Shown: positions 1-64,000 of the stretch, one piece after another | Numbering within the stretch: position 1 is the first letter of the stretch | Layout: the number at the start of each line of letters is the position of its first letter | Origin: Clavibacter nebraskensis NCPPB 2581 | Lineage (GTDB): Bacteria > Actinomycetota > Actinomycetes > Actinomycetales > Microbacteriaceae | Direction of reading: 5' to 3' | Assembly: GCF_000355695.1 (NCBI RefSeq) | Contig: NC_020891.1 | Span: forward strand, 1,364,001-1,428,000 | Length of the DNA: 64,000 nt | Notes under the pieces: generated by a model | What the model was told of the DNA's origin: nothing | Seen by the model: only the letters and a program-made list of their open reading frames with translations | The model's database searches: none | Translations under genes and position numbers: made by a program

Positions 1-33
1 CAGCAGGGCGCGGGCGGGGCGGCGGGGAGTCAT
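1..33 (-). CDS. Start of an unidentified, possibly secreted protein (partial, runs off the left edge)
   Basis: Only eleven codons are visible, reading MTPRRPARALL from an ATG at 33 on the minus strand. The Arg-rich start followed by Ala-Leu-Leu looks like the n-region of a signal peptide. A TAGCCT hexamer at 41-46 (minus strand) lies 7 bases before the ATG, the leaderless layout seen at many other genes here, which supports a real start. In related actinobacteria a DUF3515 lipoprotein gene often sits beside thiL; that identity is inference from context only. Confidence 0.4.
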   Translation of the reverse strand, partial: MTPRRPARALL

Positions 34-40
34 CGCGATC

Positions 41-50
41 AGGCTACCGT
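41..50. promoter_or_regulatory. Overlapping divergent -10 hexamers for thiL and the left-edge gene
   Basis: On the minus strand TAGCCT covers 41-46, 7 bases before the ATG at 33. On the plus strand TACCGT covers 45-50, 7 bases before a thiL GTG at 58. Both gaps fit leaderless transcription, and the hexamers share two base pairs, so one short DNA segment could open for transcription both ways. Confidence 0.4.
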
Positions 51-57
51 GGCAGTC

Positions 58-1143
58 GTGACGACTCCTGGGACGCCCTCCGACCGCGACACGGCCACCC
101 TCGGGAGCGCGGGGGAGCTCGCGACCCTGGCGCGGATCCTGCCCCATCTGCCCGCCGCGGACGACGCCGAGGTGGGCCCGGGCGACGACTGCGCGGTCGT
201 GCGGGCGCCCGACGGCCGCTTCGTCATCACGACGGACATGATGATCGAGGGCCCCGACTTCCGCCTGGCCTGGTCGACGCCCCACGACCTCGGGCGCCGG
301 GCGGCGACCTCGAACCTCGCGGACGTGGCCGCCATGGGCGCCCGGCCGACCGCGCTCCTCGTCGCCATCGCGGCCCCGGCGGGCACGCCGGTCGCCGACC
401 TCGAGGCCCTCGCCGACGGGCTCCGGGAGGGCTGCAGCCTGCAGGCACCGGGATGCGGGGTCGTCGGCGGCGACCTGTCCGTCTCGGACGCGCTGGTGAT
501 CACGGTCACGGCCACGGGCGACCTCGAGGGGCGCGACCCCGTGCTGCGCTCGGGCGCGCGCCCCGGCGACGTGATCGCGGTGGCCGGCGCGCTCGGCGTG
601 GCCGCGGCCGGCGTCCGCCTCCTCTTCGACCTCGCCAGGAGCACGGCACCGGGCGGCGACCTCGTCCCCGACGCGGTGCTCGCCCGGGCGCTGCGGGCGT
701 CCCACCCCGCCGCGGTCGAGGCGCAGCTGGCGCCGGTCGCGCCGCTCACCGCCGGGGTCGACGCGGCGCGTGCCGGCGCGACCGCGATGCTCGACGTCTC
801 CGACGGCCTCCTCCTCGACCTCGGCCGCATGGCCCGCGCGAGCGGCGTCGGCATCGACCTCGCATCCGCCGACCTCGCCGACGACGCCCGCCGGGTCGCC
901 GCCGCGCACCCGTCGCTGCCGCCCGCGGCCCTCGACCTCGTGCTCACCGGGGGAGAGGACCACGCGCTCGTCGCGGCGTTCCCGGCGGGCGCGTCGCTGC
1001 CGGAGCCGTTCCGCGCGATCGGCGTGGTCGCGGCCGCCGGGCCCGACGGTCCGGCCGTGACGGTCGACGGCGCGGCGTACGAGGGGCCGCGCACGCCGCT
1101 CGGCGGCTGGGATCCCTACGCCGACTGGGACGGGGCGCGCTAG
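58..1143 (+). CDS. thiL: Thiamine-monophosphate kinase ThiL
   Basis: ThiL phosphorylates thiamine monophosphate with ATP to thiamine diphosphate, the last step of cofactor synthesis in the cytosol. The protein (about 361 residues) has the PurM/ThiL metal- and nucleotide-binding signatures: GDDCAV near residue 43, TTDMMIEGPDF near 58, SNLADVAAMGA near 85, GGDLS near 140, DVSDGLLLDLGRM near 245 and TGGEDH near 300. The start is uncertain: GTG at 49 is in frame, but neither start has a Shine-Dalgarno site, and GTG at 58 is 7 bases after TACCGT, as at other leaderless genes. The end overlaps the convergent rsmD by 4 bases. Confidence 0.93.
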   Translation: MTTPGTPSDRDTATLGSAGELATLARILPHLPAADDAEVGPGDDCAVVRAPDGRFVITTDMMIEGPDFRLAWSTPHDLGRRAATSNLADVAAMGARPTALLVAIAAPAGTPVADLEALADGLREGCSLQAPGCGVVGGDLSVSDALVITVTATGDLEGRDPVLRSGARPGDVIAVAGALGVAAAGVRLLFDLARSTAPGGDLVPDAVLARALRASHPAAVEAQLAPVAPLTAGVDAARAGATAMLDVSDGLLLDLGRMARASGVGIDLASADLADDARRVAAAHPSLPPAALDLVLTGGEDHALVAAFPAGASLPEPFRAIGVVAAAGPDGPAVTVDGAAYEGPRTPLGGWDPYADWDGAR

Positions 1144-1754
1144 GTCGCGGGCTCCTCCGCGTCGTCCAGCTGCTCCTCGTCGTCGGGCGATCCGGCGACC
1201 GCCCACCACACGACGGTGTCGCCGTACGCCTTCCGGCGGTCGAGCGCGATCCCCGCGGGCCACGTCGGCTCGGCCGAGCGCGCGCTGCGCTCCACCATCA
1301 CCACGGCCCCGTCGACGAGCCGCGTGACGAGCGCGGCCAGCTCCTCCGCCAGCTCGGCGTCGCCCACCTCGTACGGCGGATCCAGGAACGCGACGTCGTA
1401 GGTGCCGCGGTCGCCCGCGAGGAAGGCGCGCACGCTCTGGGCGGCCACCCGGATCCGCGGCTCGCCCCCCTTCGGCGCCGCGCGCTCGACGATGCCCGCG
1501 TTCGACCGGCAGACGGCGGCGGCCGGCACCGCGCGCTCCACGAGGACGACTTCGCGCGCGCCGCGGCTGGCGGCCTCGAGGCCGAGGGCCCCGGATCCGG
1601 CGTACAGGTCGAGGACGCGCGCGCCGTCGAGCGCGTCCCGGGCCTCGAGCCCGGAGAACAGGGCCTCGCGCACGCGGTCGCTCGTCGGGCGCGTGCCCGT
1701 CCGCGGGACGCGGAGGACGAGGGAGCCGGCGAACCCGGCGACGATGCGGGTCAC
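1140..1754 (-). CDS. rsmD: 16S rRNA (guanine(966)-N2)-methyltransferase RsmD
   Basis: This SAM-dependent methyltransferase modifies G966 of 16S rRNA in the small subunit. The 204-residue product starts VTRIVAGFAG, matching the family's usual beginning; an open frame continues upstream to 1970 but its translation is low-complexity and unlike the family. SAM motif I is VLDLYAGSGALGLEA (residues 47-61) and the catalytic DPPY is at 125-128. The C-terminal DDEEQLDDAEE tail is acidic. The gene converges on thiL with a 4-base overlap and is divergent from the moxR operon. In many actinobacteria coaD follows rsmD; here coaD lies 7.9 kb away beyond recG. Confidence 0.93.
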   Translation of the reverse strand: MTRIVAGFAGSLVLRVPRTGTRPTSDRVREALFSGLEARDALDGARVLDLYAGSGALGLEAASRGAREVVLVERAVPAAAVCRSNAGIVERAAPKGGEPRIRVAAQSVRAFLAGDRGTYDVAFLDPPYEVGDAELAEELAALVTRLVDGAVVMVERSARSAEPTWPAGIALDRRKAYGDTVVWWAVAGSPDDEEQLDDAEEPAT

Positions 1755-1826
1755 GACGCGATCCCGGCGGGATGCGGGAGGGCGGCGTTCGGAGCGGGGT
1801 GCACGGGCGACCACGCTACCCGGCAT

Positions 1827-1850
1827 GTCCGCCCCGGAGGCGGGGCGGAC
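1827..1850. repeat. Perfect 9-bp inverted repeat upstream of the moxR promoter
   Basis: GTCCGCCCC (1827-1835) and GGGGCGGAC (1842-1850) are exact reverse complements separated by six bases. The repeat lies just upstream of and partly over the -35 zone of the predicted moxR promoter and between two divergent genes, so it could be an operator. It is too far from any gene end to be an obvious terminator. Confidence 0.5.
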
Positions 1851-1868
1851 GCTCCCGGATCGCTGACG

Positions 1869-1874
1869 TATGCT
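1869..1874 (+). promoter_or_regulatory. Predicted -10 box of the moxR operon
   Basis: TATGCT lies 31 bases before the moxR GTG, giving a leader of about 25 bases that contains the GGAGGA ribosome site. No good -35 hexamer is visible. Confidence 0.45.
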
Positions 1875-1905
1875 GCCAAGACGCCCACGACGCTGGAGGA
1901 ACTCC

Positions 1906-2991
1906 GTGACGAGTCCCGAGTCCGAGTCCGTCCCCCTGAACGCCGGGTCGGGACAGCCGCCCGCCCGCATCCGCGCCGCCGCGCGTCAGGCCGACCGCAG
2001 CCACGGTGCGCCCGCCATGCCGCTCGAGGAGGTGCGCCTGCTCGCCGACCTCATCCTCGGCAACATCGACTCCGTCATGTCCGGCAAGCACGATGCCACC
2101 CGCATGGCGCTCACCGTGTTCCTCTCCGGCGGCCACCTCCTCATCGAGGACGTGCCGGGCGTCGGGAAGACCATGCTCGCCAAGGCGCTCGCGCGGAGCG
2201 TCGACTGCACCATCAACCGGATCCAGTTCACGCCCGACCTCCTGCCTTCGGACGTCACGGGCGTCTCCGTCTACAGCCAGGCGGACCACCGCTTCGAGTT
2301 CCAGCCGGGCGCCGTGTTCGCGAACATCGTCATCGGCGACGAGATCAACCGCGCGAGCCCCAAGACGCAGTCGGCGCTCCTCGAGTGCATGGAGGAGGGG
2401 CAGGTCACGGTCGACGGCGTCACGCATCCGCTGCAGCAGCCCTTCACGGTGGTCGCCACCCAGAACCCGGTCGAGATGGAGGGCACGTACGCGCTCCCGG
2501 AGGCGCAGCGCGACCGCTTCATGGCCCGCATCTCGATGGGCTACCCCGACGCCTCCGCGGAGCTCGCCATGCTCCGCTCGCGCGACACCGTGAGCCCGCT
2601 CGACGAGCTGCGGCCGGTCGTCGACGCGGAGGAGCTCGACGCGATGATGCACGCGGCCCGCGGCGTGTACGTGTCCGACCCCGTGTCCCGCTACACCGTC
2701 GCGATCGTGCAGGCCACGCGCGGCCACGAGGACATCCGCCTCGGCGCGAGCCCCCGCGCCACCCTCCAGCTCATCCGCGCGGCGAAGACCCGGGCGGCGC
2801 TCGACGGGCGCGACTTCGTGCTGCCCGACGACGTCGACGCCCTCGCGGCGCCCGTGCTCGCGCACCGGCTCGTCGCGACCGGTCGCGCGCTCGGCCAGCG
2901 CGGTCGCGGCCAGGCCGCCGTGGTCGAGATCCTCGAGCGCATCGTCGCGTCGACCGCCGTGCCGCTGAGCGCCGCCGGACGGACGCGCTGA
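1906..2991 (+). CDS. MoxR-family AAA+ ATPase
   Basis: MoxR ATPases are chaperone-like AAA+ proteins, usually encoded with DUF58 and transglutaminase partners as here. The 361-residue product shows Walker A (DVPGVGKTM, 82-90), Walker B (VIGDEINR, 142-149) and sensor 1 (VVATQNP, 182-188), followed by the conserved MEGTYALPEAQRDRF segment. The GTG at 1906 is chosen because GGAGGA ends 5 bases upstream; an in-frame ATG at 1870 lies inside the predicted -10 box. It is the first gene of a tight operon (4 bases to the next gene). The substrate is unknown. Confidence 0.93.
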   Translation: MTSPESESVPLNAGSGQPPARIRAAARQADRSHGAPAMPLEEVRLLADLILGNIDSVMSGKHDATRMALTVFLSGGHLLIEDVPGVGKTMLAKALARSVDCTINRIQFTPDLLPSDVTGVSVYSQADHRFEFQPGAVFANIVIGDEINRASPKTQSALLECMEEGQVTVDGVTHPLQQPFTVVATQNPVEMEGTYALPEAQRDRFMARISMGYPDASAELAMLRSRDTVSPLDELRPVVDAEELDAMMHAARGVYVSDPVSRYTVAIVQATRGHEDIRLGASPRATLQLIRAAKTRAALDGRDFVLPDDVDALAAPVLAHRLVATGRALGQRGRGQAAVVEILERIVASTAVPLSAAGRTR

Positions 2992-2995
2992 CCCC

Positions 2996-4321
2996 GTGCC
3001 GCCCCTCGCGCGCCTGATGCGCCGGATCGGCGTCGAGGCCGTCCCGCACCCGACCCTCCGCGGGATCGCCCTGCTCGCCGCCGGGGTCGCCGCGTTCGCG
3101 GGCGCCTTCATCGCGGGGCGGCGCGAGTTCGTCTTCATCGGCGTCGCGCTCCTCGCGCTCCCGCTGCTCGCCGCCGTCTGGCTCGTGATCGCGCGGGTGC
3201 GGCTGCACGTCGAGCGCACCTTCACCTCCGAGGTCGTCGAGTCCGGCACGGCGACGACCGTCACCGTCTCCGTCGCGAACGCGGGCAGCATGCCGACGCC
3301 ACGCTCGTGGGTGCTCGACCTGGTGCCCGGATCCGACGGTGCGATGCCGCCCGCCGAGCTGCCGTCGCTCCGGGGACTCGCGCGCGGATCCCGCCGCTCC
3401 ACCGCCCGGCCCGTCCTCCGCTACGACCTCACGCCCGAGCGCCGCGGCGTCCACGAGGTGGGCCCGCTCGCGGTCGAGGAGCACGACCCCTTCCGCCTGA
3501 TGGGGCTGCGGCACGTCGCGGGCGGCACGTCGCGCCTCGTCGTGACGCCGCGCCTCGCCGACCTCGAGGCCGAGCCCGGCGGCCAGGTGTCGTCCGAGGG
3601 CGAGTCCGAGCGCGTGCAGCGCCGTGCCGACGGCGGCGAGGACGACCTCGGCACGCGCGAATACCGGGCGGGGGATCCGCTCCGCCGCGTGCACTGGCGC
3701 GCCACCGCCCGGCACGGCGAGCTCATGGTGCGGCAGGAGGAGCAGCGGTCGAGCCCGCGCTCGCTCGTGCTCCTCGACACGCGTGCTGCCGGATACCCGC
3801 CGCACGACGACGACGGGGACGGCGACCGGGCGTTCGAGCGCGCGGTGGCGTTCGCGGCGTCCGTGGCCGTGCACCTGCAGCGCGGGGGATACGCGGTGCA
3901 CCTGATCGAGACGGCCGCGGGATCCGACCGGCAGGCGCCCGTCGCCGCCCGACCCGGCGACGCCGCGGCCGAGGGGGACCTGCTCCTCCACCTCGCCGAG
4001 GTGCGCCCGGCCGCGGTCGACGCCGACCGCGACGGCGTGCAGGAGGCCCTGTCCGACCTGCGCCGCAGCCGCCGCGCGGTCCCGATCCACGCCGTCCTCG
4101 GCCACCTCGACGAGCACGAGGCGCGCCGGCTCGCCGGCTTCGGCGCCGCCTGTCGCCCCGCGGTCGCGTTCCTCGCGCACCCGGGCCGCGTCGACGGCCG
4201 CGACGACCGCGAGGCCCTCCGGATCCTCCGCGAGGCCGGCTGGCGAACGGTCGTCCTCGGCGACGGCACGCGGCCCGCCGACGCGTGGCGCGCCGCCCGC
4301 GCCGAGGAGATGGCCCGATGA
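2996..4321 (+). CDS. DUF58 domain membrane protein
   Basis: A 441-residue protein with two membrane segments near the N-terminus (about 21-40 and 46-66) and a DUF58 region whose hallmark YRAGDPLRRVHWRATARHG lies near residues 222-240. DUF58 proteins have a von Willebrand A-like fold and usually act with a MoxR ATPase. The GTG start follows moxR by 4 bases, and the stop overlaps the next gene as ATGA, so the three are translationally coupled. Molecular role is not established. Confidence 0.9.
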   Translation: MPPLARLMRRIGVEAVPHPTLRGIALLAAGVAAFAGAFIAGRREFVFIGVALLALPLLAAVWLVIARVRLHVERTFTSEVVESGTATTVTVSVANAGSMPTPRSWVLDLVPGSDGAMPPAELPSLRGLARGSRRSTARPVLRYDLTPERRGVHEVGPLAVEEHDPFRLMGLRHVAGGTSRLVVTPRLADLEAEPGGQVSSEGESERVQRRADGGEDDLGTREYRAGDPLRRVHWRATARHGELMVRQEEQRSSPRSLVLLDTRAAGYPPHDDDGDGDRAFERAVAFAASVAVHLQRGGYAVHLIETAAGSDRQAPVAARPGDAAAEGDLLLHLAEVRPAAVDADRDGVQEALSDLRRSRRAVPIHAVLGHLDEHEARRLAGFGAACRPAVAFLAHPGRVDGRDDREALRILREAGWRTVVLGDGTRPADAWRAARAEEMAR

Positions 4322-6837
4322 CCGACCTCGACGCCGTCGGCCTCGGGGGCCGCGAGCACTGGACGCTCGAGCCGCGCCCGCTGCCGGGGGAGCGTGCGGG
4401 CGGGCCCGGCGGACGCGGACGCGGAGACGGATCCGGATCCGGCCGCCGTGGCCGCGGGTCGGGTTCCGGGCGCGCCGCCGCCCGCTGGCCGCTCACCGCC
4501 GCGCTGGGCGTCGCCCTGCTGGCGGGGGCCGCCAGCCTCCACCTGCTCGTCGAGCCGGGGGCCTGGTTCCTGCTCTGCATTGTGGTCGTCGCCGCGGTGC
4601 TCGGATCCGCCGCGCTGCTGCGCTCCGTCGGCGTGCCGCGCCTGTTGGCCTCGGCGGGCGGCCTCGTCCTCCTCGTGCTCCTCGTCACCCTCGTGTTCGC
4701 GGGCCGCACCGCGGTGCTGGGCGTGATCCCCACCCCGGAGACCGTCCGCACCCTCCTCGCGGTCGGCGAGCAGGCGGGCGAGGAGATCTACCGGAGGTCG
4801 GCGCCCGTGCCCCCGCTGGCCTCCATCGTCTTCGTGATCGTTGCCGCGATCGGCGCCCTGGCCGTCGTGCTCGACGTGCTCGCCCACGCGCTCCGCCTCC
4901 CGGCCGTGACCGGGCTCCCGCTCCTCGTGCTCGTCTCCGTGCCCGGCGCCGTGCTGGTGGGCGAGTTCTCCGTCGCCTCCTTCGCCGTCACGGCGCTCGC
5001 GTGGTTCGCGGTGCTCGCCGCCGACGCGCGCGAGACCGACGGCGAGGGCGGGTGGCGCGGATCCGGCCTCCTCGGCATCGCGGCCCCGCTGCCTGGACCC
5101 GCCCGGTCCTCGCCAGGCGGACGGGCGGGATCCGCGCGCACGACGCTCGCCTCCGCGGGCGCGCTCGCGGGCGGCGCGGTCGTCCTCTCCCTCGTCGCGC
5201 CGGCGATCGTCCCGGGCCTCACGTCGGCGACGTTCCCCACCGCGTCCGGCTCCGGCCAGGGCGGCTCGCGCGTCGTCAACCCGATCCTCGACCTCGGCGA
5301 CGACCTCCGCCGACCCGTCGACGTCGAGGCGCTCCGCTACTCGACCGCGTCCCGCACGCCGCTCTACTTCAAGGTCACGACGCTCTCGCGCTTCGAGGGC
5401 GACGAGTGGGCGCCGTCGCCGCTGCGCCCGCCGGACGGGAACACCGTCGACGCGATCGGGCCGGACCTCGGCGCCGGATCCGACGTGCCGGCCGAGGAGG
5501 TCGAGGCGCGCGTGCAGGTCGAGGGCTCCTCGAGCGCGTGGCTCCCCGCGCCCTACGCGCCCCGCAGCGTCACCGGGCTCGACGGCTCGTGGCGCTGGTC
5601 GGAGCAGGGCCTCGCGATCCGCTCGTCCGACTCGGACAGCCGCGACCAGAGCTACACCGTGATGAGCGAGCTGCCGCGCCCCGAGCGCGCGCAGCTGGAG
5701 GCCGTCGCGCCCGCGACCGACGACGACCTCCAGCCGTACCTGCAGATCCCCAGCGGCACCCCCGGCATCGTCGCCTCGACGACCGCGGACGTCCTCGCCG
5801 GCATCGACTCGCCCTACGACCAGGCGCTCGCGCTCCAGGAGTTCTTCACGGGCGGGAAGTTCCGCTACTCGGAGGACGCGCCCGTCCAGCAGGGCTACGA
5901 CGGCAGCGGCGTCGACGTGGTGGGGGAGTTCCTCCGGGTGCGCTCCGGGTACTGCGTGCACTTCGCGTCGGCCATGGCGATCATGGCGCGCGAGGCGGGC
6001 ATCCCGTCGCGCGTGGCCGTGGGGTACCTCCCGGGCGATCAGGTGGGGCGCAACGGCGACCTCATCACCTACCGCGTCGGATCCCACGACCTGCACTCCT
6101 GGCCCGAGCTGTACTTCTCCGGCATCGGCTGGATCGCCTTCGAGCCCACGCCGGGCCGCGGCCAGGCCGCGCCCTACGCCCAGCCGTCCGCGGCGCCGAC
6201 CACCGCGCCCACGCCGTTCGCGACGCCGAGCGCGCCGACCGAGGCCACGCCGACCGCGACGCCCGCCCCCACCGCATCGGCCGCGCCCGGCGCGAGCGGC
6301 GGCACGGGCGTCCGGATCCCGTGGGCGGCCCTCGGCACGGCCGCCCTCGTCCTCCTCGTGCTCGTCCTCCTCGCCGCCCCCGCACTCCTGCGCCGCGCCC
6401 GCCGCTCCGGCCGGCTGCGCGCGCTCGAGGCCGGCGACGCCCCGGCGGGCACGGCCTGGCGCGAGGTGGAGGACCAGGCGGTCGACCTGGGGATCCGCGT
6501 GCCGGACACCGAGTCGCCGCGCGAGCTCGGCCGGCGCCTCCAGGGCGACGACCCGTCCCTCGCCGACCCGGTCGCCCTCCTGGTCACGGCGCGCGAGCGG
6601 GAGCGCTTCGCCCGCGCCGACGCGCCGGTGGACGCCGCGGCCGGCGCCGCGCAGTCGGCCGCGCTCGTCGCGCTCGGCGACGCGCTGCGCGCTCGGGCGG
6701 GACGCGCCGACCGGATCCTCGCGCTCGTCGCGCCGCGCTCGCTCGTCCGCCGCCGCCCGCGGTCCGACGACGGCCGGGTCGACGGGGACGCGGGCGGGCC
6801 GCCGGCGTCGGACGCCCCTCGTACACTCGGGGGATGA
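4318..6837 (+). CDS. TgpA-type transglutaminase-like membrane protein
   Basis: This 839-residue protein has an N-terminal bundle of hydrophobic helices (roughly 60-250), an extracytoplasmic transglutaminase core, a Pro/Thr/Ala-rich linker, one more membrane helix (about 670-693) and a C-terminal cytosolic DUF4129-like tail. The core carries Cys546 (in SGYCVHFASAM) and His593 (in HDLHSWPEL), with GWIAFEPTPG where the third catalytic acid falls (Glu rather than Asp). A Gly/Ser/Arg-rich stretch precedes the first helix. It overlaps the DUF58 gene and recG by ATGA. Family members are putative proteases or protein-modifying enzymes; the target is unknown. Confidence 0.9.
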   Translation: MTDLDAVGLGGREHWTLEPRPLPGERAGGPGGRGRGDGSGSGRRGRGSGSGRAAARWPLTAALGVALLAGAASLHLLVEPGAWFLLCIVVVAAVLGSAALLRSVGVPRLLASAGGLVLLVLLVTLVFAGRTAVLGVIPTPETVRTLLAVGEQAGEEIYRRSAPVPPLASIVFVIVAAIGALAVVLDVLAHALRLPAVTGLPLLVLVSVPGAVLVGEFSVASFAVTALAWFAVLAADARETDGEGGWRGSGLLGIAAPLPGPARSSPGGRAGSARTTLASAGALAGGAVVLSLVAPAIVPGLTSATFPTASGSGQGGSRVVNPILDLGDDLRRPVDVEALRYSTASRTPLYFKVTTLSRFEGDEWAPSPLRPPDGNTVDAIGPDLGAGSDVPAEEVEARVQVEGSSSAWLPAPYAPRSVTGLDGSWRWSEQGLAIRSSDSDSRDQSYTVMSELPRPERAQLEAVAPATDDDLQPYLQIPSGTPGIVASTTADVLAGIDSPYDQALALQEFFTGGKFRYSEDAPVQQGYDGSGVDVVGEFLRVRSGYCVHFASAMAIMAREAGIPSRVAVGYLPGDQVGRNGDLITYRVGSHDLHSWPELYFSGIGWIAFEPTPGRGQAAPYAQPSAAPTTAPTPFATPSAPTEATPTATPAPTASAAPGASGGTGVRIPWAALGTAALVLLVLVLLAAPALLRRARRSGRLRALEAGDAPAGTAWREVEDQAVDLGIRVPDTESPRELGRRLQGDDPSLADPVALLVTARERERFARADAPVDAAAGAAQSAALVALGDALRARAGRADRILALVAPRSLVRRRPRSDDGRVDGDAGGPPASDAPRTLGG
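6822..6827 (+). promoter_or_regulatory. Predicted leaderless -10 box of recG
   Basis: TACACT ends 6 bases before the recG ATG although recG overlaps the upstream operon, so recG may have its own leaderless transcript. Confidence 0.5.
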
Positions 6838-9017: not shown

Positions 9018-9034
9018 CCGGGCGAGAGCAGCCC

Positions 9035-9040
9035 TAGGCT
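9035..9040 (+). promoter_or_regulatory. Predicted leaderless -10 box of coaD
   Basis: TAGGCT ends 6 bases before the coaD ATG; no ribosome site fits between them. Confidence 0.55.
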
Positions 9041-13297: not shown

Positions 13298-16200
13298 GTG
13301 CACCTGAAGAGCCTGACCCTCAAGGGGTTCAAGTCGTTCGCGCAGCCGACCACGTTCCAGTTCGAGACCGGGGTCACCTGCGTCGTCGGCCCGAACGGAT
13401 CCGGCAAGTCGAACGTCGTCGACGCCCTCGCCTGGGTCATGGGCGAGCAGGGCGCCAAGACGCTCCGCGGCGGCAAGATGGAGGACGTCATCTTCGCCGG
13501 AACCTCGACGCGCGGGCCGCTCGGCCGCGCGGAGGTCACGCTGACGATCGACAACGCCGACGGCGCGCTGCCCATCGACTACACCGAGGTCGCGATCCGC
13601 CGCACGCTCTTCCGCAACGGCGGCAGCGAGTACGCCATCAACGGCACGTCCTGCCGGCTCCTCGACGTGCAGGAGCTCCTGAGCGACTCCGGCCTCGGCC
13701 GCGAGATGCACGTCATCGTCGGCCAGGGCCGGCTCGACAACGTGCTCCGCGCGACGCCCGAGGAGCGGCGCGGCTTCATCGAGGAGGCCGCGGGGATCCT
13801 CAAGCACCGCCGCCGCAAGGAGCGCACCCTCCGCAAGCTCGAGGGCATGCAGGCGAACCTGACGCGCCTCAACGACCTGGCGAGGGAGATCCGGCGCCAG
13901 CTGAAGCCCCTCGGCCGGCAGGCGGAGGTCGCTCGGCAGGCGCAGACCGTGGCCGCCGTCGTCCGGGATGCGCGCGCGCGGCTCGTGGCCGACGAGGTCG
14001 TGACCCTCCGGCGCGCGCTCGCGGAGCACACGCGCACCGAGGAGGAGCGCACGACCGAGCGCATGGTGCTGCAGGAGAAGCTCGACCGCGCGGTCATCCG
14101 CTCCGAGCGCATCGTCGAGGAGCAGGAGGGCGACGAGGTCGACGGCGCCCGGCGCACGGCCTTCGCGCTGGAGCAGGTGCAGGAGCGCCTGCGGAACCTG
14201 CTCTCCCTGGCGCAGCAGCGGATGGCGCTCCTCGGATCCGCCGACGACGCGCCCGAGACGACCGCCGGCACCACGCCGGCGCAGGTCCAGGAGTCCCGGG
14301 ACGAGGCCGAGCGGCTCGTCGCCCTCATCGCCGAGGCGGAGGCTGGCTGGGCGTCCGCGCGCCAGACGACCGCGGCGGCGCGGCAGGCGCTCGACGCGCT
14401 CGACGAGGAGATCCAGGCCCAGAGCGCGCTCGTCTCCCGGCACGACCTCGAGATCGCCGGGCTCACGGGCCGGGCGGAGACCGCGGGGTCCAAGCTCGCG
14501 GCCGTCCGCGGCGAGGTGCTCCGCCAGCAGAACGCGCTCGACGCGGCGCGCGCCCGGCTGACCGCCGCCGAGGCCGAGCGGGAGCGCGGCGAGGCGGAGG
14601 GCGAGGCCGACGAGCAGGGCGGATCCGAGCTGACACGCGCCTACGAGGACGCGCAGGCCGACGTGGCCAGCGAGGAGTCCGCGATCGAGGCCGTGCGCGA
14701 GGAGCTGCACGCGAAGGAGCGCGAGCGCGACGCCCTGGCCGCGCGCGAGCAGGCCCTGGCGAGCGCGCTCGACCAGCGCGACGGATCCAGCGACCTCGTC
14801 GCCGCGGGCCTGCCCGGCATCCGCGGCCTCCTCGCCGAGCACGTGCACGTGCAGCCGGGATACGAGGCCGCCGTCGCGGCGGCGCTCGGCTCGCTCGCCG
14901 ACGCGGTGCTCGCCGAGACGCACGACGACGCCGTGGCCGCGCTCCGCCGCGCGGTCGACGACGACCTGGGGCGCGTCGAGGTGGTCGTCGCCGGCTCCGC
15001 CGACGCGCAGGCCGCGGTCGCGTCGTCCGCCGGGCCCGTCGCCGCGGCCTCCGTGGTCGACGCGCCCGACGGCGTGCGGCGGATCCTCGCTGGCGTCGTG
15101 TTCGTCGACGACCTCGCGCAGGCCGTCGCCCTCGTGGACGGACCGGATGCGCCCGCCACGGCGATCACCAGCGCGGGCGAGGTCGTGTCGCCGCACATGC
15201 TGCGCGGCGGATCCGGCGCCACGCGCTCGAAGCTGGAGCTCGTCGCCGCGCGCGAGGCCGCCGCGACCACCCTCACCGGCGTCCGCGCCCGCATCGACGA
15301 CCTCCAGGTGGACCTCGCGGCCGGGCGGGAGCGCCTGCGCGCCGCCCGCGAGCGCGCGTCCGCCGCGCTCGGCGGCCTCCGCGAGGCCGATGCGCGCCTG
15401 GCCGCCCACGCCGAGCGCCTCAGCCGCTCGCGCGCCCAGGCGGAGTCCGCCGCGGCCGAGCTCGCCCGCGTGCAGCGCGGCCTGGATCTCGCGAGCGCCT
15501 CCGTGGACGAGGCCGTCGCCGCGAACGACGCCGCCCGTCGCGCGCTCGACGAGGCGCGGTCCCGCCCGCGTCCCGTGCTCGACGCGAGCGGCCGCGACGC
15601 GCTCGTCGCCGAGTGGGAGGCCGCGCGCGAAGCGGAGATCGAGGCCCGCCTCCAGGTCGAGACCGCGCGCGAGCGCGTCCGGGCGGAGCAGGAGCGCACG
15701 GTCGCGCTCGAGCGCCGCCTCGCCGCGGAGCGCGCCGCCGCCGAGGAGGCCGCGCGACGCCAGGTGATCCGCCGCCGTCAGATCGCCCGCGCCGCGTCCG
15801 TCGCCGACGCCCTGCCCGCCGTCGTGCGCGCCGCCGACCGCAGCACCGCCGAGGCGCGTCTCGTCCTCGCCCGCGCCGAGGAGGCGAGGGCCGGCCGCAA
15901 CGCCGAGCTGGTCGCGCTCCGCCGCGAGGAAGCCGAGCTGCGCACGCGGCTGCACGGCATCACCGAGGACGTGCACGGCCTCGAGCTGCAGATCTACGAG
16001 AAGCGCCTGCAGGTCTCCCAGCTCCTCGAGCGCGCCGCGAGCGAGCTCGGCCTGGGGGAGGAGGTGCTCGTCGCCGAGTACGGACCCGACGTGCCCGTCC
16101 CCGAGGAGGCGCCGCTGCCGCCGCCGCAGCGCCCGCGCGCCGCCGCCGAGGGCCCCGATGCGGATCCCGAGGGGGACGAGCCGCGCGACGGCGACGCCGC

Positions 16201-17026
16201 GGACTACGACGTCCCCGGCGACGCTCCCGCGGATCCGGCCGACGACGACGATGCCGACGAGGCGCCCGTCCCCACCCGCCCCTTCGACCGCGAGGAGCAG
16301 CGCGCCCGCCTCCAGCAGGCGGAGCGGAAGCTCGCCCAGCTCGGCCGCGTGAACCCGCTCGCCCTCGAGGAGTTCGCCGCGCTCGAGCAGCGCCACCTCT
16401 TCCTCACCGAGCAGCTCGCCGACCTGACCGCGACACGGAAGGACCTGCTCACGATCATCGACGACATCGACCGCACCATGCAGGGCGTCTTCGCCGCCGC
16501 GTTCGAGGACACCCGCCAGGCGTTCGACCGCGTCTTCCCGATCCTGTTCCCGGGCGGCACGGGCAGCATCCACCTCACGGATCCCGAGCAGCTGCTCACG
16601 ACGGGCATCGAGGTGAGCGTCCGCCCCGCGGGCAAGCGCATCGAGCGCCTGTCCCTGCTCTCCGGCGGGGAGCGCTCGCTCGCCGCCGTCGCCCTGCTCA
16701 TCGCGATCTTCACCGCGAGGCCGAGCCCGTTTTACATCATGGACGAGGTGGAGGCGGCCCTCGACGACGCCAACCTCGGCCGCCTGCTCACGATCCTCGA
16801 GCAGCTCCGCGACACGTCGCAGCTCATCGTGATCACGCACCAGAAGCGCACGATGGAGATCGCCGACGCGCTGTACGGCGTCTCGATGCGGCAGGACGGG
16901 GTGAGCGCGGTCGTCGGCCAGCGCGTCAGCCGTGACGCCCGCCCCGACCCGGCGACCGATCCCGGGCCGGACGCGACGGCGGGGTCCGCGCCCGAGCCCG
17001 CCCCCGAGGAGCAGGCCGCCTCCTGA
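13298..17026 (+). CDS. smc: Chromosome segregation protein SMC
   Basis: SMC dimers with ScpAB condense and segregate chromosomes. The 1242-residue protein has an N-terminal head (FKSFAQPT, Walker A GPNGSGKSN at 32-40), a long coiled coil, a hinge near 510-650, a second coil and a C-terminal head with signature LSGGERSLAAVALL and Walker B FYIMDEVEAALDD. A roughly 65-residue Pro/Asp/Glu-rich insert (about 933-998) sits between the second coil and the RVNPLALEEF segment, and the tail is Pro/Ala/Glu-rich. The GTG start follows GAGGAGGG. ftsY begins 20 bases after the stop. Confidence 0.97.
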   Translation: MHLKSLTLKGFKSFAQPTTFQFETGVTCVVGPNGSGKSNVVDALAWVMGEQGAKTLRGGKMEDVIFAGTSTRGPLGRAEVTLTIDNADGALPIDYTEVAIRRTLFRNGGSEYAINGTSCRLLDVQELLSDSGLGREMHVIVGQGRLDNVLRATPEERRGFIEEAAGILKHRRRKERTLRKLEGMQANLTRLNDLAREIRRQLKPLGRQAEVARQAQTVAAVVRDARARLVADEVVTLRRALAEHTRTEEERTTERMVLQEKLDRAVIRSERIVEEQEGDEVDGARRTAFALEQVQERLRNLLSLAQQRMALLGSADDAPETTAGTTPAQVQESRDEAERLVALIAEAEAGWASARQTTAAARQALDALDEEIQAQSALVSRHDLEIAGLTGRAETAGSKLAAVRGEVLRQQNALDAARARLTAAEAERERGEAEGEADEQGGSELTRAYEDAQADVASEESAIEAVREELHAKERERDALAAREQALASALDQRDGSSDLVAAGLPGIRGLLAEHVHVQPGYEAAVAAALGSLADAVLAETHDDAVAALRRAVDDDLGRVEVVVAGSADAQAAVASSAGPVAAASVVDAPDGVRRILAGVVFVDDLAQAVALVDGPDAPATAITSAGEVVSPHMLRGGSGATRSKLELVAAREAAATTLTGVRARIDDLQVDLAAGRERLRAARERASAALGGLREADARLAAHAERLSRSRAQAESAAAELARVQRGLDLASASVDEAVAANDAARRALDEARSRPRPVLDASGRDALVAEWEAAREAEIEARLQVETARERVRAEQERTVALERRLAAERAAAEEAARRQVIRRRQIARAASVADALPAVVRAADRSTAEARLVLARAEEARAGRNAELVALRREEAELRTRLHGITEDVHGLELQIYEKRLQVSQLLERAASELGLGEEVLVAEYGPDVPVPEEAPLPPPQRPRAAAEGPDADPEGDEPRDGDAADYDVPGDAPADPADDDDADEAPVPTRPFDREEQRARLQQAERKLAQLGRVNPLALEEFAALEQRHLFLTEQLADLTATRKDLLTIIDDIDRTMQGVFAAAFEDTRQAFDRVFPILFPGGTGSIHLTDPEQLLTTGIEVSVRPAGKRIERLSLLSGGERSLAAVALLIAIFTARPSPFYIMDEVEAALDDANLGRLLTILEQLRDTSQLIVITHQKRTMEIADALYGVSMRQDGVSAVVGQRVSRDARPDPATDPGPDATAGSAPEPAPEEQAAS

Positions 17027-23113: not shown

Positions 23114-23350
23114 ATGCTCGCTCCCGCGCTCGCTCATCTGGTCAAGGGCATCGTCGAGCACCCGGACGACGTCTCCGTGACGAGCAAGGGATCCCCCCGC
23201 GGCGAGGTCCTCGAGGTGCGCGTGCACCCCGAGGACCTCGGCCGGGTCATCGGCCGAGCGGGCCGCACCGCGAAGGCCCTCCGGACGCTCGTCTCGGCTC
23301 TCGCCGACGGCCAGCGCGTCCGCGTCGATGTGGTGGACACCGATTCCTGA
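23114..23350 (+). CDS. khpA: KH-domain RNA-binding protein (KhpA/YlqC type)
   Basis: A 78-residue single KH domain with the RNA-contact loop as VIGRAGRTAKALR (usual KhpA form is VIGKQGRTAKA). It sits between rpsP and rimM, its normal place in Gram-positives. KhpA binds RNA, often with KhpB, and affects cell division and envelope growth in some firmicutes. It begins 3 bases after rpsP and overlaps the predicted rimM start. Confidence 0.92.
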   Translation: MLAPALAHLVKGIVEHPDDVSVTSKGSPRGEVLEVRVHPEDLGRVIGRAGRTAKALRTLVSALADGQRVRVDVVDTDS

Positions 23351-25450: not shown

Positions 25451-25460
25451 CACGCGAAGG

Positions 25461-25466
25461 ATCCTA
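25461..25466 (-). promoter_or_regulatory. Predicted -10 box of map
   Basis: TAGGAT on the minus strand ends 10 bases before the map ATG; it overlaps a GGATCC palindrome at 25459-25464. Confidence 0.45.
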
Positions 25467-28365: not shown

Positions 28366-28475
28366 GGCCCCGACGGGATCCCTCCCCAGGCGTCCGGGCG
28401 GGGTCGATCGCACGGCCGGAAGACGGTCGGCAGGCCGCGCCGTCGTGATCGCGCATCCTCCTCGCGGAGGTGCGC

Positions 28476-37399: not shown

Positions 37400-37449
37400 G
37401 GACCGGGGCCGGATCCGGCGACCGGAACGCGAGGACGGGAACAGCACCT

Positions 37450-55190: not shown

Positions 55191-55196
55191 TGTTCG

Positions 55197-55202
55197 ACCG
55201 TA
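55197..55202 (-). promoter_or_regulatory. Predicted leaderless -10 box of glgE-glgB
   Basis: TACGGT on the minus strand ends 6 bases before the glgE GTG. Confidence 0.5.
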
Positions 55203-55349
55203 GCCCGTGCGCCGTCCGGCTGTCGCTCGCCGCGGCGGTGGCCGGCGCCGTGCGGATGCCCGACGGCCGCGCGTCATCGCCCGTGCGCCCCGCGGCCACG
55301 GACCCTCCACGCGCGGGCCGGACCCTGGTGCCCTGCCACCCCGCGCCCC

Positions 55350-55355
55350 TAGGCT
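55350..55355 (+). promoter_or_regulatory. Predicted -10 box of glgP
   Basis: TAGGCT lies 53 bases before the glgP GTG; the leader has a TAGGGAG ribosome site. Confidence 0.45.
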
Positions 55356-55407
55356 CGGGAGCCATCCGCGCGGGCCAGCCCGCCGCCGTCCGGTCCTAGG
55401 GAGTCCC

Positions 55408-57963: not shown

Positions 57964-57967
57964 CGGG

Positions 57968-57999
57968 GGCGGGCGGCGACCATCGGGGCGCCGCCCGCC
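57968..57999. terminator. Terminator between glgP and the GDSL gene
   Basis: GGCGGGCGGCG (57968-57978) pairs exactly with CGCCGCCCGCC (57989-57999), 11 bp with a 10-base loop, 4 bases after the glgP stop and 3 before the convergent stop. Confidence 0.8.
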
Positions 58000-58002
58000 G
58001 TC

Positions 58003-59310: not shown

Positions 59311-59453
59311 GTGCGGCGTCCTCGTGCTCGGGCGCGGCGGTGCGCGGCGGATCGTGCGGGCGCCTCCAGGAGAGCACACGGGCGCCGCGCGACGCGAACC
59401 CGGCGCGGCCTCCGTCCGGGTCGGCCGCGCGCCTCGGCGGACGGGTGGCCGGG

Positions 59454-61511
59454 TCAGCGGGCCTGGTAGATCCCCAGCGCCGGCCCGTCGACCTCGACCC
59501 GGTCGCCGGGCGCGTCGTCCGTCGCCACCACCTCGGGCCGCTCCCACTCGCTCGACCACAGCAGGCGCCAGCACGCCACGCCGTCGTGCTCCGGCAGCGT
59601 CACCGTCGCGCGGGACTCCTGGCCGTGGATGACGACGAGCACGCGGCTCGGCTCCTCGGTCTCGGGGGTCGACGTGGTGATCCACTGCAGGGTGCGCGTG
59701 CCCGTCGACTCCCAGGCCGCCTCGGTCATGGGCGTGCCGTCGGCGTCGCGCCAGGCGAGCACCGACGCGCTCGGCACGTGCGCGTCGGGCTCCGCGTAGC
59801 GCACGGGCCGGAGCGCCGGGTTCTCCCGCCGGATGCGGAGCAGGTGGCGCGTGGTCGCCTCCAGGTCCATCCGCCACGCGTCCTCGTCCCAGCGCATCCA
59901 CGTCGCCGCGTTGTCGAGGCAGTAGCCGTTGTTGTTGCCGCGCTGCGTGCGGCCGCGCTCGTCGCCCATCGTGATCATGGGGATGCCCGCGGAGACGAGC
60001 AGCGTCCCGAGCAGGTTGCGCGAGGTGCGCCTGCGGGCCGCGAGGATCGCGGCGTCGCGCGTCGGCCCCTCCACGCCGTGGTTCCACGAGCGGTTCGCGT
60101 CGGTTCCGTCGCGGTTCGACTCGCCGTTGCCGCTGTTGTGCTTGCGGTCGTAGCTCGTGAGGTCGGCGAGCGTGAAGCCGTCGTGCGCGGTGACGAAGGA
60201 GACGGAGGCGAGCGGGCCGCGGTCGGCGGCGAAGGTTCCGGAGGATCCCGCGAGGCAGGACGCGAGCGCCCCCACGCCGTTCGGGGCGCGGCCGGTGCGC
60301 CGGGACTCGGCGACGTCGGTGAGCCAGAAGTCGCGCACGACGTCGCGGTAGCCGTCGTTCCACTCGCTCCAGCCGGATCCGAACCCGCCCGTGCGCCAGC
60401 CGCCCATGCCCACGTCCCACGGCTCGGCGATCATGAGCAGCCCCTGGAGCGCCTCGTCCTCGACGATGGCGCGCAGCAGCGGGTGCGCCGGGTCGAAGTC
60501 CACGCGCTCGTCGCGCCCGAGGGTCACGGCGAGGTCGAAGCGGAAGCCGTCGACGCCCATCACGTCGGACCAGTGCTCGAGCGAGTCGAGCACGAGGCGC
60601 TGCGCGTCGGGCCGGGACAGGTCGACCGTGTTGCCGCAGCCCGTCACGTCGATGGGCGTGCCGTCGGGCGTGTGCCGGTAGTACCGCGAGCCGTCGATGC
60701 CGCGGAGGCTCGTGACGGGCCCGTCGGCGCCCTCCTCGGCCGTGTGGTTGTAGACGACGTCGAGCACGACCTGGATCCCCGCGGCGTGAAGCGCGTCGAC
60801 CATGCCCCGGAACTCCGCCGCGACCTCGTCGGCGCCGGCATCCCGGGCCCGTCGCGTCGCGTAGGGCGCGTGCGGCGCGAGGTAGGCGAGCGTGTTGTAG
60901 CCCCAGTGGTTGATGCGGCCCTGCGCGCGCAGCCGCTCCTCGCTCGTGGACGCGTGCACGGGCAGGAGCTCGACCGTCGTGATCCCGAGGTCGACCAGGC
61001 GCTCCACCGTGGTCGGGTGCCCGAGGCCCGCGTACGTGCCGCGCAGCTCCTCCGGCAGCCGCTCGTCGGTCTTCGTGAAGCCGCGCACGTGCAGCTCGTA
61101 GACGACCTGCCGGTCGCGCGGCACGACGGGGCGCGCGGCGCGGCGGGCGGCGCGCTCCTCGGCGGGCACCTCGCGCGTGGCGACTGACCGCCACGCGGCG
61201 GGGCCCACCTGCACGAGGCCGCGGGCGTACGGGTCGAGCAGGTGGCGCGTCGGGTCGAAGGAGTCGCCGGGCGCGGGGTCGCCGTCGACGCGCACGGAGT
61301 ACGCGGTGCCGGGGACGAGCCGGGCGCTGGATCCCGTCCACACGCCCGCGTCGCCGCGCTCCATCGCGACGACCTCGACCACGCGGCGGGGGTCGTCGAC
61401 GTCCGAGACGGTGAGCTCGACGGCGGACGCGCCGTGGCTCACGACGCGCAGCGTGCCGCCCTGGTCGTGGAGCGTCAGCCCCAGGGGCACGGGCGGTCCG
61501 GGGCGGGGCAT
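59454..61511 (-). CDS. glgX: Glycogen debranching enzyme GlgX (isoamylase type)
   Basis: GlgX hydrolyses alpha-1,6 branches left after phosphorylase action. The 685-residue GH13 protein has an N-terminal CBM48 (PVPLGLTLHDQGG), HWGYNTLAYLAP, nucleophile Asp in GVDGFRFDLAVTLGRD, acid Glu in IAEPWD, SFVTAHDGFTLADL and GDERGRTQRGNNNGYC. ATG at 61511 fits; minus-strand TACCCT is 7 bases upstream. With glgP it forms the breakdown branch. It is divergent from csd with only 18 bases between start codons. Confidence 0.94.
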   Translation of the reverse strand: MPRPGPPVPLGLTLHDQGGTLRVVSHGASAVELTVSDVDDPRRVVEVVAMERGDAGVWTGSSARLVPGTAYSVRVDGDPAPGDSFDPTRHLLDPYARGLVQVGPAAWRSVATREVPAEERAARRAARPVVPRDRQVVYELHVRGFTKTDERLPEELRGTYAGLGHPTTVERLVDLGITTVELLPVHASTSEERLRAQGRINHWGYNTLAYLAPHAPYATRRARDAGADEVAAEFRGMVDALHAAGIQVVLDVVYNHTAEEGADGPVTSLRGIDGSRYYRHTPDGTPIDVTGCGNTVDLSRPDAQRLVLDSLEHWSDVMGVDGFRFDLAVTLGRDERVDFDPAHPLLRAIVEDEALQGLLMIAEPWDVGMGGWRTGGFGSGWSEWNDGYRDVVRDFWLTDVAESRRTGRAPNGVGALASCLAGSSGTFAADRGPLASVSFVTAHDGFTLADLTSYDRKHNSGNGESNRDGTDANRSWNHGVEGPTRDAAILAARRRTSRNLLGTLLVSAGIPMITMGDERGRTQRGNNNGYCLDNAATWMRWDEDAWRMDLEATTRHLLRIRRENPALRPVRYAEPDAHVPSASVLAWRDADGTPMTEAAWESTGTRTLQWITTSTPETEEPSRVLVVIHGQESRATVTLPEHDGVACWRLLWSSEWERPEVVATDDAPGDRVEVDGPALGIYQAR

Positions 61512-61517
61512 GCGACC

Positions 61518-61524
61518 TAGGGTA
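61518..61524. promoter_or_regulatory. Overlapping bidirectional -10 of glgX and the cysteine desulfurase gene
   Basis: TAGGGTA gives TAGGGT (61518-61523) on the plus strand, 6 bases before csd ATG 61530, and TACCCT (61519-61524) on the minus strand, 7 bases before the glgX ATG 61511. Five of the six base pairs are shared, so both genes would be leaderless and driven from one opened segment. Confidence 0.6.
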
Positions 61525-61529
61525 GGGGC

Positions 61530-62735
61530 ATGACGGTCTACCTCGACCACGCGGCCACGACCCCCATGCGGCCGGAGGCGATCGCGGCGCTCGCCGGGGC
61601 GCTGACCCTGGTGGGGAACCCGTCCTCCATCCACTCGCACGGGCAGGAGGCGCGGCGCGTGCTCGAGGAGGCGCGCGAGGCCATCGCGCGGGCGCTCGAC
61701 GCGGACCCGGTCGAGGTCGTGCTCACCTCCGGCGGCACCGAGTCGGTGAACCTGGGGATCAAGGGGCTGCACGGCGCGCGCGTGACGGCCGACCCGCGGC
61801 GCACGCGCATCCTCGTGCCCGACGGCGAGCACCACGCCACAGCCGACACGGTCGAGTGGCTCGAGCGCCGCGGCGCCGCCGTGGAGCGGCTCCCCATCGA
61901 CGCGCTCGGGCGCATCCGGGTCGACCAGGTCGCCGCCGCGCTCGCCGCGGACCCCGGATCCGTCTCCCTCCTCACGTTCCTCGCCGCGAGCAACGAGGTG
62001 GGCACGATCCAGCCGGTCGAGGAGCTCGCCGCCCTCGCCCGGGCGCACGGCGTGCCCGTGCACGTCGACGCGGTCGCCGCGTTCGGGCACATGCCGGTGC
62101 CGTTCCGGCGCTGGCGCGAGGCGGGCGTCTCGGCCGTGAGCGTCTCGGCGCACAAGGTCGGCGGGCCCGTCGGCAGCGGGGCGCTCGTGCTCGCGCGGCA
62201 GGCGACGGTGGATCCGCAGATCCACGGCGGCGGCCAGCAGCGGCAGGTGCGCTCAGGCACGCAGGACGCGGCCTCCGCGGTGGCGTTCGCGGCGGCCGTG
62301 TCGCTCGCCGTCGCCGAGCTCGACGCCGAGGCCGTGCGCCTGGCGCGCCTCCGCGACCGCCTGGTGGAGACGGTCCTCCGCGACGTCCCCGGCGCGGTCC
62401 TCCGCGGCGACCCGGATCCCGCGGGCCGCCTGCCCGGCAACGCGCACCTCACCTTCGCGGGCTGCCAGGGCGACTCGCTCCTGCTCCTGCTCGACATGGC
62501 CGGCGTCTCTGTCTCGACGGGATCCGCGTGCCAGGCCGGTGTGCCCGAGGTCTCGCACGTGCTCCTCGGCATGGGCATCCCCGAGGACGAGGCGCGCGGC
62601 GCCCTCCGCTTCACGCTCGGCCGCACCACCACCGACGCCGACGTGGACGCGCTCCTCGCGGCGCTGCCCGACGCCGTCGCGCGGGCCTCCCGGGCGGGCC
62701 TCGCGGGACGCGCGGCGCGTAGGCTCACGGGGTGA
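61530..62735 (+). CDS. Cysteine desulfurase (IscS/NifS family)
   Basis: This PLP enzyme takes sulfur from cysteine onto its own cysteine and passes it on, here probably to MnmA. The 401-residue protein has [46 protein letters not shown] Lys209 ([10 protein letters not shown]) and the active Cys334 ([17 protein letters not shown]). It overlaps mnmA as GTGA, so the donor and the thiolase are coupled. Confidence 0.95.
62720..62725 (+). promoter_or_regulatory. Predicted leaderless -10 box of mnmA
   Basis: TAGGCT ends 6 bases before the mnmA GTG, inside the end of the desulfurase gene. Confidence 0.5.
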
Positions 62736-63895
62736 AGATCCTCGCAGCGATGAGTGGCGGAGTCGACTCCGCCGTGGCCGCCGCCCGCGCCGTGGAGGCC
62801 GGGCACGACGTGACGGGCGTGCACCTCGCGCTCAGCCGCATGCCGGGGACGCTCCGCACCGGGTACCGCGGCTGCTGCACCATCGAGGACTCCATGGACG
62901 CGCGCCGCACGGCCGACCTCCTCGGCATCCCGTTCTACGTATGGGACTTCTCCGAGCGCTTCGCCGCCGACGTCGTCGACGACTTCGTCGCCGAGTACCA
63001 GGCCGGCCGCACCCCCAACCCCTGCATGCGCTGCAACGAGCGGATCAAGTTCGCGGCCCTCCTCGAGAAGGCGCTCGACCTCGGCTTCGACGCCGTGTGC
63101 ACGGGCCACTACGCCGACGTCATCCCGGGGCCCGACGGACAGCCGGAGCTTCACCGCGCCGCGGCGTGGGCCAAGGACCAGTCGTACGTGCTGGGCGTGC
63201 TCACGGCCGAGCAGATCGCGCACTCGTACTTCCCGCTCGGGTCCACGCCGTCCAAGGCCGAGGTGCGCGCGGAGGCCCAGGCGCGCGGGATCCAGGTCGC
63301 GCAGAAGCCGGACAGCCACGACATCTGCTTCATCCCCGACGGCGACACCCGCGGCTGGCTCGCCGACCGCGTGGGCGCCGAGCCGGGCGACATCCTCGAC
63401 GGCGAGGGGAACGCGATCGGCACGCACCAGGGCGCCGCCGCCTTCACGGTCGGGCAGCGCAAGGGCCTCGCGATCGGCACGCCGGCGCCCGACGGCCGCC
63501 CGCGGTTCGTGCTGGAGATCCGGCCCAAGGACAACACGGTCGTCGTCGGACCGCAGGAGGCGCTCGCGATCCGCGAGATCGCCGGGTACTCGTACACGTG
63601 GGCCGGCACCCCGCCCACGCGGCCCGACCAGCCGTTCGACTGCGACGTGCAGATCCGCGCCCACGCCGACCCCGTTCCCGCACGGGCGGCGGTGTCGGAG
63701 GTCCATGGCAGCATGCAGCTCGTGATCACCCCGCGAGACCCCCTCGTCGGCGTCGCCCCCGGGCAGACCGCCGTCGTCTACGCCGGCACGCGCGTGCTCG
63801 GCCAGGTCACCATCGACCGCACCGTGAGCGCCGTTGCCGACGCCCGACCGCCGATGCGCGATGCCGCCCTCGTCGGCGCGGCCACGGGGGAGTGA
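62732..63895 (+). CDS. mnmA: tRNA-specific 2-thiouridylase MnmA
   Basis: MnmA puts sulfur on U34 of tRNA for Lys, Glu and Gln. The 387-residue protein has the ATP PP-loop SGGVDS (8-13), catalytic Cys98 ([14 protein letters not shown]), sulfur-carrying Cys199 ([11 protein letters not shown]), and the C-terminal beta-barrel. It follows the desulfurase with GTGA overlap; ligA starts 7 bases after its stop. Sulfur passes from the desulfurase to Cys199 (known for the family). Confidence 0.95.
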
Positions 63896-63902
63896 CGCGC
63901 GC

Positions 63903-64000
63903 ATGAGCGACACCGCCACCGCATCGCCCGCCGCGGACGACGCGGTCCCCGCCACCACCCCCGCCGACCTCGAGGCCGCCTCCGCCCGGGTCGATGCCCT
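63903..64000 (+). CDS. ligA: NAD-dependent DNA ligase LigA (partial, runs off the right edge)
   Basis: Only 32 codons are visible ([15 protein letters not shown], then [15 protein letters not shown]). The [12 protein letters not shown] end matches the start of the LigA adenylation domain in actinobacteria, and ligA follows mnmA in relatives. The NAD-binding and ligase motifs lie outside the window, so the call rests on this short match and context. Confidence 0.7.

Follow-up and report, generated by a model that had tools for sequence, protein, structure and literature searches.

The 64,000-nt window analyzed here, positions 1,364,001-1,428,000 of NC_020891.1 from Clavibacter nebraskensis NCPPB 2581 (genome G000 below), is densely sown with the hexamer GGATCC, a palindrome and hence strandless. 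Genes were called with a simple codon-model caller of our own and no standard program, which gave 53 genes in the window. A sequence-only reading of the window had put the word at about 103 copies, against some five of GGTACC and an expectation near 20. Exact counting gives 103 and 5, and base composition predicts 20. Markov models of orders 1 to 4 predict 32, 34, 56 and 76 copies, with the higher orders already absorbing part of the effect. By codon phase, 39 copies read GGA TCC, 34 read xGG ATC C and 26 read G GAT CC; the remaining four lie outside called genes. Three genic copies and three intergenic copies had been singled out earlier as evidence that the word occurs in every phase and between genes. 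The genic ones are in the phases then named, and none of the intergenic ones falls in a called gene (Table 1). The comM-like (YifB) and dprA genes mentioned in the same reading do lie in the window; genes of these types are widespread.

The excess of GGATCC is genuine and exceeds what had been claimed for it. The genome holds 5,698 copies in 3,063,596 bases (1.86 per kb), against 136 of the reversed-letter word CCTAGG. Shuffling of synonymous codons within genes, which preserves each protein and every codon count, yields 23.3 ± 4.1 copies for the 53 window genes (maximum 36 in 1000 shuffles), where 99 are observed. In a larger sample of 464 kb, made up of the window and 20 stretches of 20 kb with 390 called genes in all, 712 copies stand against 156.4 ± 10.2 shuffled. 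All three phases contribute: 267 against 24 for GGA TCC, 223 against 107 for xGG ATC C and 222 against 25 for G GAT CC. Seventeen other palindromes in the same shuffle table lie at 0.71-1.73 times expectation, and among hexamers with a shuffled expectation above 10 GGATCC ranks first both by z and by ratio. A null that preserves codon pairs was applied to 709 genes for phases 1 and 2 only, phase 0 being the codon pair itself; it gives 296.6 ± 8.1 copies in phase 2, where 392 are observed (z 11.8), and 262.9 ± 13.1 in phase 1, where 405 are observed (z 10.8). In 64 kb of uncalled DNA there are 122 copies, and 60 GGATCC against 5 GGTACC lie in intergenic stretches of at most 400 bp.

The sequence-only reading had proposed a frame-independent preference at the level of DNA, comparable to HIP1 of cyanobacteria, and had named two results that would speak against it: a genome-wide count near expectation, and codon-pair shuffles that give a similar count. 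Neither was obtained, the second in the phases that can be tested, and the excess in all phases and in uncalled DNA bears the proposal out. Two marks of a highly iterated palindrome (HIP), over-representation past composition and codon use and presence in all frames and between genes, are found. There is no clear flank consensus outside the hexamer, no clear difference from relatives in a shift of amino acids to Gly-Ser or Asp-Pro, and, by eye, no clean chromosomal trend across 41 stretches.

The excess operates at the DNA level, and its full effect requires the entire hexamer. In the 390 genes GGA makes up 6.5% of glycine codons and GAT 7.0% of aspartate codons, as uncommon as they had seemed at first reading, while ATC makes up 99% of isoleucine codons; the preference for GGATCC runs counter to a third-position G+C content of 97%. 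Aspartate is written GAT in 222 of 305 cases (73%) in the G_CC context, against 281 of 7775 (3.6%) in the class of other contexts, with half-matching contexts intermediate (47/384 and 72/387). Glycine is written GGA before TCC in 267 of 434 cases, against 420 of 10296 in the class of others. The odds ratio for GAT in the exact hexamer is 76, and five of the seven measured contexts one base off GGATCC show odds of 3.4-6.2. Position by position, the odds are 38 at the central A, 76 at the central T, and approximately 16 and 9 at positions 1 and 6. Position 2 is the weakest, with odds of approximately 3.6 to 6 for G over C, and at position 3 A is preferred over C, G and T alike (approximately 47, 25 and 18). 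Relative to codon shuffles, the six outer near-misses stand at 1.02-1.57 and the twelve inner ones at 0.31-1.25.

New here is that copies of GGATCC repel one another. In 1.37 Mb from three congeners (G000, G034 and G109), 94 pairs lie 6-50 bp apart, against 216 expected from the pair density at 200-1000 bp (0.43); the deficit is gone by approximately 125 bp, beyond which the density stays level up to 1 kb. Permutation, in which filled and unfilled synonymous opportunities were swapped within each stretch, predicts 98.5 ± 6.4 pairs closer than 50 bp in G000 and 30.7 ± 4.2 in G034, where 60 and 15 are seen. Opportunities are filled in 1109 of 1536 cases at 150-600 bp from the nearest site, against 126 of 290 at less than 50 bp (Fisher p 1.5e-20). 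Within 50 bp of five other palindromes the filled fraction is 0.647-0.699 for four and 0.56 for CGATCG. The close-pair ratio in the 464-kb sample is 0.35 for GGATCC and 0.69-2.13 for the 22 other palindromes present in 150 copies or more, and those of the latter below 0.9 rest on at most 9 pairs. Other GATC words are likewise depleted near GGATCC, though more mildly (0.75, z -8.8), with GTAC, TCGA, CATG, AGCT and TGCA words near it at 0.98-1.02; the pattern '.ATC..' (0.77) overlaps GGATCC and was excluded from use. Site pairs show no helical phasing at 9.5-11.5 bp. Hairpin avoidance was considered as the cause of the repulsion and rejected, as the 22 other palindromes are without the effect; in the corresponding controls, inverted pairs of 30 sampled words stand at 0.66-1.26 (median 0.95) and 40 sampled non-palindromic words at 0.62-1.92. 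The repulsion is expected neither from codon bias nor from a simple mutation bias acting site by site.

Comparison of the congeners shows how sites come and go. Across 44 gene alignments, at least one of the three genomes has GGATCC at 119 positions; of these positions, 40 are shared by all three genomes and 36 by two, and 43 have the word in a single genome. At 26 of the 36 two-genome positions the third genome is one base off. In pairwise codon comparisons, GAT is retained in 37 of 44 cases within a site against 42 of 98 elsewhere, and GGA in 43 of 56 against 45 of 126. Conservation of third positions is slightly lower up to 15 bp from a site (0.789) than at remote positions (0.834). Site turnover is mainly by single-base differences, and the codon within a site is better conserved.

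The distribution of the word was surveyed in 150 genomes of the family, with densities computed from rounded genome sizes. Three genus members hold 1.7-1.9 GGATCC per kb, G004 0.93 and G126 0.86; the remaining 145 genomes hold at most about 0.7. Against the codon null, sampled stretches of the three congeners give ratios of 4.56, 5.08 and 4.01, followed by G004 (2.99) and G087 (2.14), both of one genus, and by G126, at 2.39 against 0.86 in its congener G057. Low ratios are found in G043 (0.46), G001 (0.6) and G003 (0 of 1.9 expected). The ratios of G001, G003, G026, G045, G098 and G058 rest on a single 20-kb stretch each and are noisy, among them 2.51 for G098, 2.01 for G045 and 1.63 for G026. 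With added sequence G068 went from 2.35 to 1.56 and G047 from 2.47 to 1.71, and G014, G007 and G119 stand at 1.46, 0.90 and 0.99. One genus has GGATCC in extreme abundance; the rest of the family shows moderate, patchy levels, and several genera have no excess. On a 17-genome Ffh/FtsY tree, well-supported branches require at least three changes between high and low labels, the labels being taken from the first ratios; shuffled labels match this result in 209 of 500 trials, and our claim on the distribution is therefore limited to its patchiness. Searches of the open-access literature returned no title or abstract that reports an actinobacterial GGATCC excess.

GGATCC works like a HIP and may be one. 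Its diminishing return over 50-100 bp is not predicted by a per-site bias. The best fit is a word recognized by a chromosome-binding factor, and we hold with slightly less than even confidence that GGATCC serves throughout the chromosome as such a word in the genus, read by a putative factor. Such a sequence-specific factor would read a GATC core with G before it and C after it, and weak selection would favor the full site, with log odds of approximately 3.6-4.3 at its central A and T. A site would bring less benefit when another recognized site is within reach, because the bound complex would occlude or serve some 50-100 bp and so create local redundancy. The likeliest candidates are dispersed proteins that bind or mark the chromosome. 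It is possible, although we are more doubtful of this, that GGATCC marks where a putative chromosome-wide Microbacteriaceae protein binds, one that reads GATC between G and C, covers some 50-100 bp per site and determines codon choice at most available positions in the genus, with the word HIP-like by way of occupancy and not of methylation.

Several observations weigh against a recognition word of this kind. No factor was found in our searches. The one-off contexts GGATAC and GGATTC have odds of 0.92 and 0.26, and the unequal effects of the six positions are unlike the prediction of a plain equal-penalty binding-site model. At distances above 600 bp from the nearest site, 209 of 398 opportunities are filled, a lower level that we read as regional variation. 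Repulsion is weakest in G109 (19 pairs, where 200 permutations give 27.0 ± 3.2 and never fewer than 16). None is seen in G126, G004 and G087, whose close pairs, 7, 3 and 1 in number, are too few for a judgment. A control pattern of three consecutive A/T bases is also low near GGATCC (0.65, 104 pairs), so local composition may contribute to the repulsion from other words. Finally, the plasmid-like contig of G034 is not enriched, with 28 GGATCC in 58 kb where about 23 are expected. A G+C-poor chromosomal island holds 23 in 20 kb against 8 expected, and together the unenriched contig and the enriched island suggest that GGATCC accumulates over time instead of being instantly required. The second contig of G034 (G034:C2, L223, 78 kb), unenriched in GGATCC, has TraG-like and MobF-relaxase-like open reading frames recognizable by eye and is probably a conjugative plasmid. 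In L012 and L018 fewer opportunities are filled: 11 of 28 where a stretch contains ribosomal-protein genes, and 6 of 23 where it contains TIM, PGK, SOD and uvrABC, which suggests that other constraints can override the word in such gene stretches.

A HIP-type explanation linked to methylation, in which an orphan methyltransferase modifies GGATCC or GATC and a methylation-directed repair or mark function accumulates the word, is unlikely. It draws on the cyanobacteria, where a putative methyltransferase for the word was present in each genome in which a HIP was highly over-represented (excerpts of PMC4390886); the repair model of Elhai described there predicts such an enzyme and saturation near 1 kb, against 50-100 bp here. 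Profile searches of G000 found two PF01555 methyltransferase genes. The family-wide enzyme encoded by one of them, the candidate for this explanation (Table 1), is present in all three genus members and is the only enzyme common to them among the four families searched. It is also present in 140 of the 150 family genomes, enriched or not, including the unenriched G043, G001, G057 and G007; G119, which is without it, stands at 0.99 times expectation, and some carriers are roughly equal to that. The second PF01555 enzyme was found in neither sampled congener, and among the 150 genomes a 70% identical copy occurs in G149. PF02086 (Dam-class) and PF00145 (C5) have no match in G000. PF02384, searched in 17 genomes, has one match in G000 (34.6 bits, above the cut-off) and none in G034. 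No methyltransferase that tracks GGATCC was found in PF01555, PF02086, PF00145 and PF02384; other families and the BamHI endonuclease family were not searched.

Two reports from Arthrobacter, each consulted in excerpt, bear on the motif of these enzymes. A conserved orphan methyltransferase of Arthrobacter methylates TTAA, which clusters at the dnaA end (PMC4752239). In the first 20 kb of our chromosome the sole two TTAA lie between dnaA and dnaN (L001:1835, 1851), and another stretch has three within 600 bp. The family-wide enzyme is probably the ortholog of this orphan, and TTAA would more probably be its motif. The word GGATCC itself exists as an N6-methyladenine motif in Arthrobacter sp. 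U41 (PMC5356067). Its assigned locus tag adjoins, by annotation, a DNA adenine methylase carried by a conjugative plasmid; for that reason, and because PMC4752239 points to TTAA for the conserved orphan, we dropped the idea that the U41 motif belongs to the latter. The plasmid methylase is presumably of the PF02086 class, a class without a match in G000. A methylation site, one of the causes proposed in the sequence-only reading, is so far unsupported.

The uptake sequences of Pasteurellaceae and Neisseriaceae spread by molecular drive; they are longer than GGATCC and, unlike it, non-palindromic, and 6 bp of palindrome is short for an uptake word. That GGATCC is nonetheless such a word, preferred on fragments taken up in transformation and spread by molecular drive, a nearby second copy adding little, is less probable still. 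The density and dispersal of GGATCC resemble those of uptake words, the plasmid-like contig is unenriched, and the comM-like and dprA genes are within the window. In Haemophilus influenzae, pairs of uptake words at most 100 bp apart are taken up as single ones (PMC7811141, in part), and the slightly lower conservation of GGATCC flanks is as published for uptake words (PMC2397512, in part). The spacing does not fit the fragment lengths known for uptake-driven conversion elsewhere: exclusion stops at approximately 125 bp, against a spacing of Neisseria uptake words that matches conversion fragments of approximately 1-1.7 kb (the same excerpts of PMC2397512). The two-genome sites that are one base off in the third genome also count against molecular drive, as most turnover looks like point mutation.

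We consider it more doubtful again that near-misses are turned into GGATCC, with no benefit to the cell, by a mutation or repair bias that depends on context and resembles Vsr or a mismatch endonuclease. The word is favored in every frame and in noncoding DNA, near-miss words are shifted and positions are unequal, all of which such a bias would accommodate. Neighbor exclusion is unpredicted by any per-site bias, and the preference for A over all three alternatives at position 3 is not that of a single mismatch type. Vsr (PF03852) has a match in 35 of the 150 genomes, including G109, and none in G000 or G034, so that a Vsr gene does not occur wherever GGATCC is enriched, and Vsr was rejected as the cause; NucS was not searched. 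Of the earlier interpretation, the HIP1-like preference at the DNA level has held; the specific causes attached to it are so far unsupported, and an uptake word may yet apply. Codon usage, codon-pair preference or G+C content is scarcely credible as the source. In its favor, ATC as the usual isoleucine codon supplies part of phase 1 (107 of the 156 expected copies); the codon shuffles, the codon-pair null (phase 0 excepted) and the excess in uncalled DNA refute it.

Table 1 GGATCC sites of the window and PF01555 methyltransferase genes of the genome
Feature	Coordinates	Strand	Remark
GGATCC, iterated word, 103 copies	1..64000	strandless	count and codon phases
GGATCC in thiL, xGG ATC C	134..139	.	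phase assignment
Two abutting GGATCC, starts 4429 and 4435	4429..4440	.	exception to neighbor repulsion
GGATCC as GGA TCC in the 1242-codon gene 13298-17026	13397..13402	.	gene named "smc" in the sequence-only reading
GGATCC as G GAT CC in gene 13298-17026	16162..16167	.	gene named "smc" in the sequence-only reading
GGATCC	23189..23194	.	no called gene
GGATCC	25459..25464	.	no called gene
GGATCC	28376..28381	.	no called gene
GGATCC	37411..37416	.	no called gene
Family-wide orphan-like N6/N4 PF01555 methyltransferase	G000:C1:438289-439281 (L021:1432-2427)		beside RecQ-like gene
Second PF01555 methyltransferase	G000:C1 ~2313-2316.5 kb (L022)		SPPY motif by eye; beside McrC-like gene; G+C-poor island

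Other words also depart from expectation in the window and stretches L001-L020. CTGCAG (1.73), GTGCAC (1.48) and GTCGAC (1.33) exceed the codon null as well, and these three recur among the top palindromes in several relatives. The 8-mer palindrome ATCGCGAT occurs 58 times against a third-order expectation of 14.8 (3.9 times, both strands). In the window AGCGCT is strongly scarce relative to its sub-words, with 16 copies where approximately 42 are expected, and is perhaps an avoided site.

The question of why some genomes fill with one palindrome dates back to HIP1. An odds ratio of 76 at a single synonymous site makes selection measurable codon by codon, and neighbor repulsion helps to tell models of occupancy or redundancy from those of plain mutation bias. 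Congeners that differ in the word, such as G126 and G057, are a natural experiment by which the factor may be found. A role of GGATCC as a signal, if it has one, would also matter for transformation and cloning in these bacteria.

Among known systems, the motif of Arthrobacter sp. U41 (PMC5356067, in part) is the identical word, and it differs in the conjugative-plasmid DNA adenine methylase that lies beside its locus tag, for which G000 has no PF02086 counterpart. The Arthrobacter TTAA orphan (Blow 2016, PMC4752239, in part) is probably related to the family-wide methyltransferase of G000; its word being TTAA, it gives no account of GGATCC. With uptake sequences (excerpts of PMC7811141 and PMC2397512) GGATCC shares a dispersed word at approximately one per kb, near-misses, less-conserved flanks and local redundancy, whereas their spacing fits conversion fragments of kilobase length (PMC2397512). 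The closest likeness is to HIP1 and the alternate HIPs of cyanobacteria (Elhai 2015, PMC4390886, in part). Both are short G+C-rich palindromes with a GATC core, in several-fold excess, at approximately 1-2 per kb, and confined to certain lineages. No passage on spacing or neighbor exclusion was found in the excerpts of that paper. GGATCC differs from the HIPs in being a hexamer of an actinobacterial family, in having no matching methyltransferase among the four families searched, and in its exclusion of neighboring copies over 50-100 bp.

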